From IMG/VR virus record IMGVR_UViG_3300005264_000012, positions 1-43,552 of that record: 43,552 bases of DNA; one strand, written 5' to 3'. The translations under genes and the position numbers were made by a program. Origin of the DNA: a virus. Numbering within the stretch: position 1 is the first letter of the stretch; each line of letters starts with the position of its first letter. The notes beneath the pieces were generated by a model. That model was not told the origin of the DNA. It was given only the letters and a program-made list of their open reading frames with translations, and did no database searches. Below are positions 10,306 through 35,816 of this stretch, piece after piece.

Positions 10306-10334
10306 TTGACAAAATCTCATTACTAGTATATAAT
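10306..10334 (+). promoter_or_regulatory. Early promoter P2 (TTGACA-17-TATAAT)
   Basis: TTGACA at 10306-10311, 17-bp spacer, TATAAT at 10329-10334. The operator-like repeat is GTTAA-CCCC-TTGAC (one mismatch from P1). The -10 box ends 33 bp before the ATG at 10368, the same spacing as P1. Confidence 0.93.
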
Positions 10335-10367
10335 ATTATTAATAAATTAATTATTAATAAATAAATT

Positions 10368-10646
10368 ATGAGAAAACATAGAGATGAATTAGAGGGATTA
10401 GTTGTTGATTATTTAGCAAATGGGGTTGATGCAGGCCAAATTATAGAACTTATAGGCAAAGAAAATAGTGAGGATATATTAATGATATTAGAGGGAGCTG
10501 AAAAAGAATTAGATAATATGGGATTATTGTTGGAAAATGGTTTATTAATTATTGATACAGAGAAAATGACGGATTGGCAAGACGAGCAGTCGGGTAAAAT
10601 TATTAATAAGTATGTGGAGAAGTTAATTCTTCTTGTTAGTTTTTAA
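10368..10646 (+). CDS. Unknown early protein, 92 aa
   Basis: Not recognised. An acidic, helix-rich soluble protein ('LVVDYLANGVDAGQIIELIG', 'MILEGAEKELDNMGLLLENG'). First gene under P2. The start is fixed by the promoter and by a pure A/T leader that ends exactly at the ATG. Short candidate genes follow to 11245, so P2 probably drives a run of small accessory proteins. Confidence 0.78.
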   Translation: MRKHRDELEGLVVDYLANGVDAGQIIELIGKENSEDILMILEGAEKELDNMGLLLENGLLIIDTEKMTDWQDEQSGKIINKYVEKLILLVSF

Positions 10647-14057: not shown

Positions 14058-15836
14058 ATGAAAATTAAAGGGATAACCCTTACAAATTTTAAAAGCTGTA
14101 GGAGTGGAGAATATAAATTTGGGAAATATAATATAGTTACAGGGGCAAACGGGGTAGGTAAATCAAGTATTCTCGAGGGGATTGTATATGTTTTGACTAA
14201 TAAAACCTCAATGGGGACAACGGGAGTTGATAGGTATATCACAAATGGGAAGTCTAAAATGAGAGTAGATCTTGATATTGAGGGAATTGGAATGGTTACT
14301 CGTGGGATTAATAATGGTAAGGGAGTATTGATGGTGAATGGAGATCAGGTTACTAATAGTAGTTTTGAATCTCGTTATTGTGTAGAGATTAATTATCTTA
14401 TGGGTGCGATATGTCCTGAATATTGGAAATCGATGCTATATGGGGATCGCAGAAAATTAGTAATGGGTCTATTGCCTGAGGTGGATAGGAATGAAGTATT
14501 TGTTAAAATGTTTGATCGTGAGGATTTGCGAGAAAGGTTCCAAATGGAATCTTATGCGGAAGTCAATGCTTCAGTTCGGTCTTTGGAGGGAACTATCCAG
14601 GATAAAAATGGGCGTGTGGCTCAAATTATATCTGAAATTGAGGAAGTAAAGAACGTTGAGGGGGATGAAGTGGAATTTTCTAAGTTAGAGAAGTATCAAG
14701 AGTTGAAGGAGAAAATAGAAAATGAGTCGGTAATTGTTAAGGAATTAGAAAAACTAAAAGTAGAAAAGGAGGAAGAACTACAGATTGATAAAAAGGTTGA
14801 AAAGGCAGTTCAAGATTTATCTGAAAATCAGGAGGAATTGGAGGTACATAGAAGAGAATCAACTGCACTGGAGAATCTAAAAGTGGAACTTGAATTGGGA
14901 ATTGAGAAGACTGGAACGGTGGATAAGATAGAGGCTGTGCTGGACATTACAAATCAAAGGTTAATCCAAATAAGGAAAAATTTGGATAAATGTCCTGTGT
15001 GTGATAAAAAATATAATCCTTCTAAAATGATTAAGGATCTTGAAAGGGAGATAAAAGATTTTGAGATTAAGCTTCAAAAGGCAAAAGGTCAGAGGGATGA
15101 ATTACAAGCAATGGAACTAAAGATTGCTAGCATTGATCATAACATAAGAAAAGCACAAGAGATCATTGATCAATCTGAGAATATAATTGAGTTGGCACAA
15201 GATAGAAAGGAAAAATCTTTGGATCCCGATATAGCTAAATTAACTAAAAGGTTAATTACAGATAATGATCGAGGGGAATATAGTGATCTTGATAAACAAT
15301 ATACAAAATTCAAAGTAGATCAAGGGATTATGAAAGATAAGCAAAAAAGATTAAAGAGATTGAAAGAAGAGGGGCAAGAGAATAAAAAGCAAATAGAGTC
15401 TGATAAAGTAGAGCTAACCAATTTAAAAGTATTATCAGAGGCGTTATCACCTAAAGGGGTGGACGCTGAGATAATTAAAACAAAAACGAAAGTACTTGAG
15501 GGGTATATTGAGCGATATGCTAATGGTGTACGAATCGAAACAATTCAAGATTTAAAATCAGGAACAGGTGTAAAACAAGTATTCAATATAACAAAAATGG
15601 GGGTTAGTGAGAGTCAACTATCTACAGGGGAGAAGATGAAATTGGCAGTAGCATTCTCATTGGGAATTCAAGATTTAGTTAAAAAGCAATTACATAAAAA
15701 TATAAAATTCTTGATGATTGATGATGCTTCATTAATTACTGATACAGATGTATTCTTAAAGGTTATTGGAGATCGGCAATTAATCGTTGTGAAAAATACA
15801 GACAGTAAGGAGGTTGACATTAAAGTACAGTCATAA
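14058..15836 (+). CDS. SbcC/Rad50/RecN-type recombination ATPase
   Basis: 592 aa. Walker A 'GANGVGKSS' at about residues 31-39, a first coiled coil to about 300, a zinc-hook-like 'CPVCDKKY' at about 313, a second coiled coil to about 450, the ABC signature 'LSTGEKM' at about 522 and Walker B 'KFLMIDDAS' at about 550. This is the SMC-like ATPase layout used for DNA end processing and repair. Phage versions usually partner an SbcD/gp47 nuclease. None is visible here, but a RecB-type nuclease is encoded at 19102. Pure A/T leader. Shorter than cellular SbcC (about 1000 aa), as usual in phages. Confidence 0.88.
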   Translation: MKIKGITLTNFKSCRSGEYKFGKYNIVTGANGVGKSSILEGIVYVLTNKTSMGTTGVDRYITNGKSKMRVDLDIEGIGMVTRGINNGKGVLMVNGDQVTNSSFESRYCVEINYLMGAICPEYWKSMLYGDRRKLVMGLLPEVDRNEVFVKMFDREDLRERFQMESYAEVNASVRSLEGTIQDKNGRVAQIISEIEEVKNVEGDEVEFSKLEKYQELKEKIENESVIVKELEKLKVEKEEELQIDKKVEKAVQDLSENQEELEVHRRESTALENLKVELELGIEKTGTVDKIEAVLDITNQRLIQIRKNLDKCPVCDKKYNPSKMIKDLEREIKDFEIKLQKAKGQRDELQAMELKIASIDHNIRKAQEIIDQSENIIELAQDRKEKSLDPDIAKLTKRLITDNDRGEYSDLDKQYTKFKVDQGIMKDKQKRLKRLKEEGQENKKQIESDKVELTNLKVLSEALSPKGVDAEIIKTKTKVLEGYIERYANGVRIETIQDLKSGTGVKQVFNITKMGVSESQLSTGEKMKLAVAFSLGIQDLVKKQLHKNIKFLMIDDASLITDTDVFLKVIGDRQLIVVKNTDSKEVDIKVQS

Positions 15837-15865: not shown

Positions 15866-16183
15866 ATGAAGAAAGAAAAGAAAAAGAAAGAAGATGTGTT
15901 TTCTATTCAGCAGGTTGCTGATTTACACAAAGACATTTCTTATGATGTTATCTATGAGCAGGCAAGGGCAGGTAAGCTTAGTATTATTACGAAAAAGCAA
16001 GGAAAGAAGACTATGTATTTCTTTCATGGGGATTTGGTTAGACGTTCTCTAATTGATGGATTTAAAGTTCTTAAACTTGATTATGAGGGATTGATGTTAC
16101 CACGGGAGTTGCCTCGAAAAGAGGTGGTGCAGGATTTGGGGGAAATCCCAGGAAGTGGTAAAAATGTAGTAAGTAATTATTAA
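15866..16183 (+). CDS. HTH-domain protein, 105 aa
   Basis: Lysine-rich start, then a winged-helix/excisionase-like HTH segment 'FSIQQVADLHKDISYDVIYE' followed by 'QARAGKLSIITKKQGKKTMY', which matches the helix-turn-helix plus wing pattern of MerR/Xis-type DNA-binding proteins. It could be a regulator of the early promoters or a DNA architectural protein. No integrase is present, so a true excisionase role is unlikely. Leader AT-rich with AAGGAAAC about 15 bp upstream. Confidence 0.68.
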   Translation: MKKEKKKKEDVFSIQQVADLHKDISYDVIYEQARAGKLSIITKKQGKKTMYFFHGDLVRRSLIDGFKVLKLDYEGLMLPRELPRKEVVQDLGEIPGSGKNVVSNY

Positions 16184-16205
16184 TTATTAATTATTAATCA
16201 AAATA

Positions 16206-16961: not shown

Positions 16962-16992
16962 TATTTTAATTATTAGTTATTAATTATTAATT

Positions 16993-17676
16993 ATGAATAA
17001 TTCGGGAAACTGGAATTCGGGACACAGAAATTCGGGAAACTGGAATTCGGGACACAGAAATTCGGGACACAGAGATTCGGGACACTTGAATTCGGGAAAC
17101 AGAAATTCGGGAGACTTGAATTCGGGAAACTGGAATTCGGGACACAGAAATTCGGGACACTTGAATTCGGGAGACAGAAATTCGGGACACTGGAATTCGG
17201 GAGACTGGAATTCGGGAGACTGGAATTCGGGAAACTGGAATTCGGGAAACAGAAATTCGGGACACTTGAATTCGAATCAACCGACGGTAAGAATGTTTAA
17301 CCGAGAGACAGGGATGACTCATAGTGAGGTCGAAAAATTAATCCCTAAATTCTTTTATTTTGATGCGATAGAATGGGTTCAGGAAGAGGTTATGACCGAT
17401 GAGGAAAAAAGAGTATATCCATCATATAAAACCACTGGTGGCTACCTTAAGGATGTCGCCTACAAAGAGGCATGGCGGAAAGCGTGGAATAAAGCTGGGG
17501 AAGATGATAGGAAAAAGGTTCTTAAGCTACCGAATTGGGATAATGATATATTTAAAAGAATCACGGGGATTGATATTGAAAAGGAGCTAAAACCAAAACG
17601 TACAATTGAAATTGATGGTAAGACCATAAAACTTTCCAAAGAGAGTTATGCTAATCTCAAGAAACAGTTGGAGTAG
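16993..17676 (+). CDS. Pentapeptide-repeat protein with conserved C-terminal domain
   Basis: 227 aa. Residues 3-92 are 18 tandem pentapeptides of form N-S-G-[N/H/D]-[W/R/L], expected to fold as a right-handed quadrilateral beta-helix (related to the NxGxx repeats of Pentapeptide_2). Residues about 95-227 form a separate domain: 'VRMFNRETGMTHSEVEKL', 'SYKTTGGYLKDVAYKEAWRK' and 'LPNWDNDIFKRITGIDIE'. I recognise this pairing from hypothetical proteins of other phages, but no function is known to me. Some pentapeptide proteins mimic DNA and inhibit gyrase; here the helix surface would carry W, R, H and D, so that role is speculative. Leader is pure A/T. Confidence 0.82.
   Translation: MNNSGNWNSGHRNSGNWNSGHRNSGHRDSGHLNSGNRNSGDLNSGNWNSGHRNSGHLNSGDRNSGHWNSGDWNSGDWNSGNWNSGNRNSGHLNSNQPTVRMFNRETGMTHSEVEKLIPKFFYFDAIEWVQEEVMTDEEKRVYPSYKTTGGYLKDVAYKEAWRKAWNKAGEDDRKKVLKLPNWDNDIFKRITGIDIEKELKPKRTIEIDGKTIKLSKESYANLKKQLE
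16999..17268 (+). repeat. 18 x 15-bp tandem repeat within the pentapeptide gene
   Basis: Each unit is AATTCGGGA plus [A/C/G]AC plus TGG, AGA or TTG (one unit starts GAT). The first nine bases are otherwise invariant. Fourth residue: H 8, N 6, D 4. Fifth residue: W 7, R 7, L 4. Units ending in G create 11 EcoRI (GAATTC) sites in 270 bp. Confidence 0.97.
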
Positions 17677-34859: not shown

Positions 34860-35816
34860 ATGGCTACACAACAGCTACCAAAAGAGGTCCGTGGGGGAAT
34901 GCGTAGAATGATGATGGCTATTGATAGTATATACGAACATCTGACAGATGATTTATTAAAAGTTATTATTAAAATCAAATCTGAGGCTGATTTAGAATTC
35001 TATAAACCCGAACTTCACTCAATTATTACACAAGCTGGTAAGGACACAGAATATTATATTGGCACATATTCTAAGTTTAGTGCGGATTTGGCTTTGACAC
35101 GGAATTTAAGAGATTTCAAACAACTTCGAATTGATACAAAATTACCCGATTCATGGGGAGATTATCTAAAAATAATGAATAATATGGTCCGTAGGGATAT
35201 GACATATTATACATTGCATCGGTGGAACGATGGGAAAAACTTGACTGATAGAATCAAAACCATTATTCACGGAACTGAACAAACCGTTGAAAGTTTGATC
35301 AAGTTGGGGATAAGTGAGGGTGAAGATGCAATATCGCTTGCTAAGAGGATTGCACAATATATTCATCCTGATAGACGAAGTAAGGTGGTAGCTCCATGGT
35401 CAATTATACGAAGAGAGAAAGGTTTACCAGTATCTTTTGTGCCTAAGAAGGTTCCTGCGGGGGCGGTAGATTTTAATGCTTATAGAATAGCTAGAACAGA
35501 AGTTGCTCAACATTACCGCTGGATGACTATTGATTCTTCAAAGAATTTGGATTTTGTAGTGGGTTGGCAATGGATGTTGAGTGGTTCTCATCCTGTTCCT
35601 GACATTTGTGATGATTGGGCTGGGTATGATGAGGGATATGGACCAGGGGTCTATACTGACCCAATAGCAATCTCACTGTTAGGCCATCCTTTTTGTCTAT
35701 GTTTTGTTCAAACAATAACGGCATTTCATAGACAATTTAAAGAATTTTATAAAAAAGCTAGAGAGGAAATGAATCTTTCGGATGGGGTTTGGGGTGCGAT
35801 TGGATACAACAGTTGA
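34860..35816 (+). CDS. MuF-like minor head protein
   Basis: 318 aa. The C-terminal part carries the MuF/SPP1 gp7 signature: 'AYRIARTEVAQHYRWMTID' followed by 'GWQWMLSGSHPVPDICDDWA' and 'LGHPFCLCFVQ', including the HPxCxC motif. Minor capsid proteins of this family associate with the portal and enter the prohead. Normally the gene follows the portal; here about 7 kb of fibre and lysis genes lie between. A 73-bp gap upstream holds a 7-bp inverted repeat (TTGATAG at 34796, CTATCAA at 34821). Confidence 0.9.
   Translation: MATQQLPKEVRGGMRRMMMAIDSIYEHLTDDLLKVIIKIKSEADLEFYKPELHSIITQAGKDTEYYIGTYSKFSADLALTRNLRDFKQLRIDTKLPDSWGDYLKIMNNMVRRDMTYYTLHRWNDGKNLTDRIKTIIHGTEQTVESLIKLGISEGEDAISLAKRIAQYIHPDRRSKVVAPWSIIRREKGLPVSFVPKKVPAGAVDFNAYRIARTEVAQHYRWMTIDSSKNLDFVVGWQWMLSGSHPVPDICDDWAGYDEGYGPGVYTDPIAISLLGHPFCLCFVQTITAFHRQFKEFYKKAREEMNLSDGVWGAIGYNS

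Follow-up and report, generated by a model that had tools for sequence, protein, structure and literature searches.

High internal conservation (HIC) WD40 repeats in the fungal NLRs het-d and het-e are kept near-identical by concerted evolution and are polymorphic in length, and within each repeat a few codons, located at the binding surface, are under diversifying selection; their target is HET-C (PMC12222747). Among pentapeptide proteins, the mycobacterial PE/PPE-MPTR proteins carry large tandem expansions of PF01469 repeats (PMC4858275), and PF00805 proteins (Qnr/MfpA, which form a quadrilateral beta-helix) follow the consensus A(D/N)Lxx with L/F at the centre (PMC8145042).

The window analysed here is the whole of IMG/VR virus record IMGVR_UViG_3300005264_000012 (43,552 nucleotides), in which the product of one gene begins with an array of N-S-G-x-x units. 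This array has its repeat consensus in common with PF01469 proteins, PE/PPE-MPTR included. It differs from PE/PPE-MPTR in lying in a phage gene, probably an early one, that lacks a PE/PPE domain and has a C-terminal domain of its own, and from PF01469 proteins generally in that two residues vary within a frame that is silently uniform. Its NSGxx consensus does not conform to that of PF00805. Phage proteins of phrog_14105 annotated as “pentapeptide repeat-containing” have the same two-part layout and the same C-terminal domain, although compared with those that bear DUF7666 the window member lacks that domain and has its array at the very start. There is no homology to the HIC repeats, which form a WD40 propeller where the phage protein has a pentapeptide array, but the phage arrays resemble them in two respects: they are near-identical by concerted evolution, and few codons per unit are diversified (family-wide ratio 5.9, CI 3.9–11.2, for which a difference in mutation rate remains an alternative). 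The HIC repeats are the closest working parallel, and we propose, at about even chances, that their logic applies to the phage arrays too. In TAL effectors, near-identical helical repeats of 34 amino acids each carry a repeat-variable di-residue that reads DNA bases; two adjacent variable residues are found in the phage array too, which is an analogy only and implies neither a relation nor a code. A search of the open-access literature found no described phage N-x-G-x-x arrays of such a pattern, although other journals may hold one. The new element is that, across the family, the frame is silently uniform and the dipeptide diversified, a contrast that opens a recognition hypothesis to direct test.

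A Pentapeptide Array in a Phage Genome

The array gene comprises the following features:

16993–17676, plus strand: gene of 227 amino acids, consisting of Met-Asn, 18 N-S-G-x-x units, and a C-terminal part of ~134 amino acids (open reading frame, translation, phrog_14105 E = 1.4e-50)
16999–17268, plus strand: tandem array of 18 × 15 bp, the N-terminal half of the protein (PF01469 E = 6.9e-16)
17074–17088, plus strand: lone D-S-G-H-L unit (GATTCGGGACACTTG), the sole break of the unit frame (sequence parse)
17269–17598, plus strand: conserved C-terminal domain (NSNQPTVRMFN...MTDEEK...GGYLK...LPNWDNDIFKRITGID), pLDDT mostly >90
17599–17673, plus strand: C-terminal tail TIEIDGKTIKLSKESYANLKKQLE, a variable extra with two strands and a helix (model)

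Parsing the sequence reproduced the array as first described, namely 18 units of 15 bp at 16999–17268 with a three-by-three alphabet at codons 4 and 5 and a single GAT. The units read AATTCGGGA in 17/18 cases and GATTCGGGA in 1/18 (at 17074, an Asn-to-Asp change); codons 1–3 are AAT TCG GGA in 17/18 units and the remaining unit begins GAT. Apart from this one change, unit bases 1–9, 11, and 12 are constant and variation is confined to bases 10 and 13–15. Codon 4 is CAC in eight units, AAC in six, and GAC in four, and codon 5 is TGG in seven, AGA in seven, and TTG in four.

The array (TRF score 349; 47% GC vs. 36% for the window) contains no silent change across its 18 units, in agreement with the preliminary description, which had seen almost no synonymous change and read the array as young or homogenized. 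Homogenization is supported. TCG makes up 8.7% of Ser codons in the window’s other genes yet 18/18 in the array, and C-ending His, Asp, and Asn codons make up 15–23% elsewhere yet 18/18 here. Codon bias as the source of silent uniformity is ruled out by the rarity of these codons elsewhere in the window. Eight of the nine possible codon 4/codon 5 pairs are present (Asn-Leu is missing), which is also what random permutation of codon 5 relative to codon 4 gives most often. Mutual information between the two codons (P = 0.27) and linkage across the constant core are both nonsignificant, at the low power of 18 units. The earlier wording that the two positions are “freely shuffled” is compatible with these values, for which 18 units give little power, while the idea of a “programmable” pattern of W/R/L and N/H/D found no support. 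An accompanying count of 11 EcoRI sites in the array is correct, the last of them overrunning the array end (17268–17273), but carries no weight as an argument on restriction avoidance: the window has 26 sites against 18.7 ± 4.2 expected, 15 of them outside the array, and such sites are not avoided elsewhere in it.

Wholesale assembly error, which had also been raised, is an unlikely origin of the array because its longest exact repeat is 42 bp, its frame is open, and a conserved domain lies downstream; the copy number of 18 is that of the assembly. A minus-strand ORF of 111 amino acids over the array (16987–17322) was rejected as a by-product of the 15-bp repeat, whose reverse frames have no stop. 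Short AT-rich intergenic repeats (TTAATTA/TAATTAT) occur at 10319–10369, 16174–16198, and 16966–17002, the last directly preceding the start codon of the array gene; they may be regulatory or merely AT-rich spacing.

The array belongs to a known, annotated, and functionally unexplained phage family. Against Pfam PF01469 (Pentapeptide_2) it scores 58.3 bits over 18 N-x-G-x-x units, compared with a curated cut-off of 26.4 bits and a requirement of at least eight such repeats. The match to phrog_14105, annotated as of unknown function, spans both array and domain, and the C-terminal part alone reaches E = 6.3e-22. About 90 relatives have the same layout, mostly in phages and prophages of Firmicutes; the alignment-based search placed them in 72 viral contigs and 19 genome contigs, the latter mostly from Clostridia, and 6/299 genomes of one bacterial family carry relatives. 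Named examples are C. difficile phage AR1086-1 and phage-plasmids, Roseobacter phage CRP-811, and a faecal phage. A single-sequence search of the viral contigs with the C-terminal domain returned no relatives, only the alignment query reaching any, and searching the DNA for the exact pattern of the window array returned no match.

Many relatives have an additional N-terminal domain, DUF7666 (PF24703), which was found in 36/36 aligned relatives of the DUF7666-pentapeptide layout. It is absent from the window by the same search that detects it in known carriers, and ten further relatives lack it in their phage records; in the open-access literature we found no mention of it. Tails like that of the window protein (EIDGK-x-hydrophobic-x-L) also end the proteins of four relatives (L010, L014, L043, and L083) and are found in only some members; this C-terminal tail looks like an exchangeable add-on.

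Array Turnover

Unit order is private to each phage. Nearly all intact relatives contain N-x-G-x-x units, about 7 to 34 per array, and a comparison of unit order, as the preliminary description had proposed, found no identical order in distant relatives; identical order occurs only between near-identical loci. Even close loci can differ. In C. difficile, 900 bp of flank on either side of the array is 99.9–100% identical between L006/L020 and L021 (100% between L006 and L021), but L006/L020 have 12 units (L006 is a complete plasmid record) and L021 has 17 (from IMG/VR, where copy number may reflect assembly), the difference being an exact five-unit duplication. Flanks of L003 and L040 are 94–96% identical, and their arrays are wholly different, with 21 units in L003 (a complete phage record) and 27 in L040 (IMG/VR, with the same reservation).

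Codon 4 and codon 5 are strongly or significantly linked within units in most arrays, and few arrays show linkage across the constant core, a pattern that fits whole units as the currency of exchange (unit-level shuffling). Copy numbers of the relatives are soft because most come from short-read assemblies and because the contig ends in or beside the array at 12/91 loci (L008, L017, L019, L022, L029, L054, L058, L059, L078, L081, L083, and L086), which is also a warning that short-read assemblies often break at such arrays. The evidence for turnover comes from other phages because no close relatives of the window phage were found: a search with its terminase gave one match only, at 30%, and a search with its SbcC-like protein gave none.

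Structure of the Array Protein

Periodicity within the arrays is consistent with a helical coil. Independently of any model, residue 4 tends to recur at even unit lags (P = 0.0007) and at lags of 4 and 8 (P = 0.02); similarity between neighbouring units falls slightly below chance at odd lags and exceeds it at even ones. This period-2/4 signal makes the beta-helix of the preliminary description plausible and is compatible with a coil of four units, whereas AlphaFold modelled the array of the window protein at a pLDDT of only ~30–40, against the high confidence of its C-terminal domain (mostly >90). A DUF7666-bearing relative shows the same split, with poor confidence in the array.

The same lag pattern would also arise if unit heterogeneity served folding, since identical adjacent beta-repeats might slip register or aggregate; unit order would then hold no recognition information. 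The recurrence of a small palette across phages is likewise what a structural need would give. Nevertheless, an array can be built from just two kinds of unit, with the same unit up to five times in a row (L031), and under a structural need unit orders should become alike, whereas the order differs in each phage. We regard this explanation as possible but improbable.

Fold searches of the PDB with the C-terminal domain gave no significant match, nor did PDB sequence searches. Among viral models the fold of this domain had one significant match; the “Pentapeptide” protein of Rheinheimera phage Barba28A matches it by fold with E = 0.013 and is possibly a family member. Models of DUF7666 (L062:2473–2750 and other carriers) reach high confidence; in the PDB the domain comes closest to the rifampicin ADP-ribosyltransferase Arr (probability 0.84, E = 0.12), a weak likeness in fold that we treat as a lead only.

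Silent Uniformity and Dipeptide Diversity

Across the family, the frame of each array is silently uniform while the two positions described as variable in the window stay variable. We compared 46 nonredundant arrays, which are related to varying degrees and are therefore not 46 independent events. Units were accepted only with N or D as residue 1 and G as residue 3, and codon 2 was used to trim array ends; base 9 played no part in the parsing. Codons 1–3 are almost always silently uniform inside each array, and codon choice varies from phage to phage, with 28 different triplets among the 46 arrays. At the fourfold degenerate base 9, identity is 0.93 within and 0.25 between arrays, compared with 0.445 and 0.376 at base 10 (first of codon 4) and 0.485 and 0.351 at base 13 (first of codon 5; n = 46 throughout). 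Base 9 is invariant in 37/46 arrays, as G, C, T, or A according to the phage, and base 10 is variable in 46/46. Bases 10/13, nearly as variable inside an array as between arrays, exceed silent bases 6/9 in diversity by a factor of 5.9 (bootstrap over arrays, 95% CI 3.9–11.2), and the inequality holds in all 46 arrays. The residue palette is N/D/Y/H at position 4 and R/W/C/Y/G/L and others at position 5.

Because duplication and conversion affect the whole 15-bp unit, the excess at bases 10/13 implies either faster mutation there or selection on the protein. Since the base preceding base 10 is G, C, T, or A in different phages, a DNA hotspot set by sequence context is unlikely. The contrast suggests protein-level diversifying selection on residues 4–5 as the best reading; it is a family-wide contrast, the window array by itself being too small for such a test. 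The arrays would offer a compact natural system in which concerted evolution is combined with diversifying selection.

Neutral repeat turnover, in which positions 4–5 would be free surface sites with unselected diversity, fits some of these observations: both are non-consensus sites of N-x-G-x-x repeats, and turnover by duplication is clear. We nonetheless consider it unlikely, as neutral sites cannot be ~6 times as diverse as silent sites of the same units unless they mutate faster. Still less credible is a DNA-level device, in which the 15-bp unit would itself matter as a binding site, a recombination substrate, or a target of mutagenesis. The DNA is very uniform inside each array, as such a device would have it, but the frame DNA is private to the phage, so that the protein motif is conserved and the DNA motif is not; moreover, the base adjoining the variable one differs between phages, and little variation is seen at adjacent adenines (unit bases 1, 2, and 11), in contrast to retroelement mutagenesis. 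A diversity-generating retroelement was rejected on this last ground, and no reverse transcriptase was found among the larger window ORFs scanned. Pentapeptide repeats and an early phage gene would also suit a DNA-mimic or gyrase-directed protein of the Qnr/MfpA type, but this is highly improbable given a match to PF01469 and none to PF00805, a consensus of N-x-G-x-x rather than A(D/N)Lxx, the lack of any significant match to a PDB pentapeptide protein by sequence or fold, and many Arg units that leave little of the acidic surface a DNA mimic needs.

Genomic Context and Proposed Role

Array genes lie among regulators and recombination genes. The window encodes tape-measure, terminase, portal-like, helicase-loader, SbcC-like, and exonuclease genes, and its array gene sits between the SbcC-like gene and the exonuclease with no adjoining tail gene. 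In relatives, upstream neighbours are most often repressors, regulators, and antirepressors, and downstream neighbours include RecE-like exonuclease, helicase, Holliday junction resolvase, Erf annealing protein, and methyltransferases. Because of these neighbours, the array protein is probably early and intracellular and not on the virion surface, which argues against the surface-variation device (virion or cell) envisaged in the preliminary description. One may speculate that the adjoining annealing and recombination genes promote the exchange of units.

Diversifying selection on residues 4–5 could reflect recognition, with the shuffled array of an early intracellular protein acting as a diversified target-contacting surface, a reading that we hold to be evenly poised. 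The N-x-G-x-x pentapeptide scaffold would turn residues 4 and 5 of each unit outward as the target-contacting face. Unequal exchange or slippage between 15-bp units would constantly duplicate and delete units, so that codons 1–3 become silently uniform in each phage while order and number turn over fast, as the comparison of loci shows, and selection on the protein would hold the two adjacent residues diverse within a small palette, as base diversity suggests. The constant part of the job would fall to the conserved C-terminal domain, together with DUF7666 where present. A likely role would be to bind variable host factors, for example proteins of defence or regulation, in the early phase of infection or at about the time of the lysogeny decision. 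More doubtfully, a widespread early protein of Firmicutes (and other) phages might be an HIC-like module in which unit order decides which host factor is bound and evolves as fast as the host target.

If the diversity does serve recognition, phages would possess in these arrays an equivalent of the fungal self-diversifying repeat receptors, with a binding surface remade through shuffling of 15-bp units. The phrog_14105 family, often with DUF7666, would then gain a testable function, and a fast-evolving host target, possibly in defence or regulation, would be implied.

Two other genes in the window have secondary matches. The SbcC-like gene (14058–15836; phrog_77) also matches PADLOC LmuB (E = 4e-20), probably via the common SMC-like ATPase architecture. 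At 34860–35816, the C-terminal part of a head-morphogenesis-like protein weakly matches a PHROG of Bxa ADP-ribosyltransferase (E = 1.6e-11).
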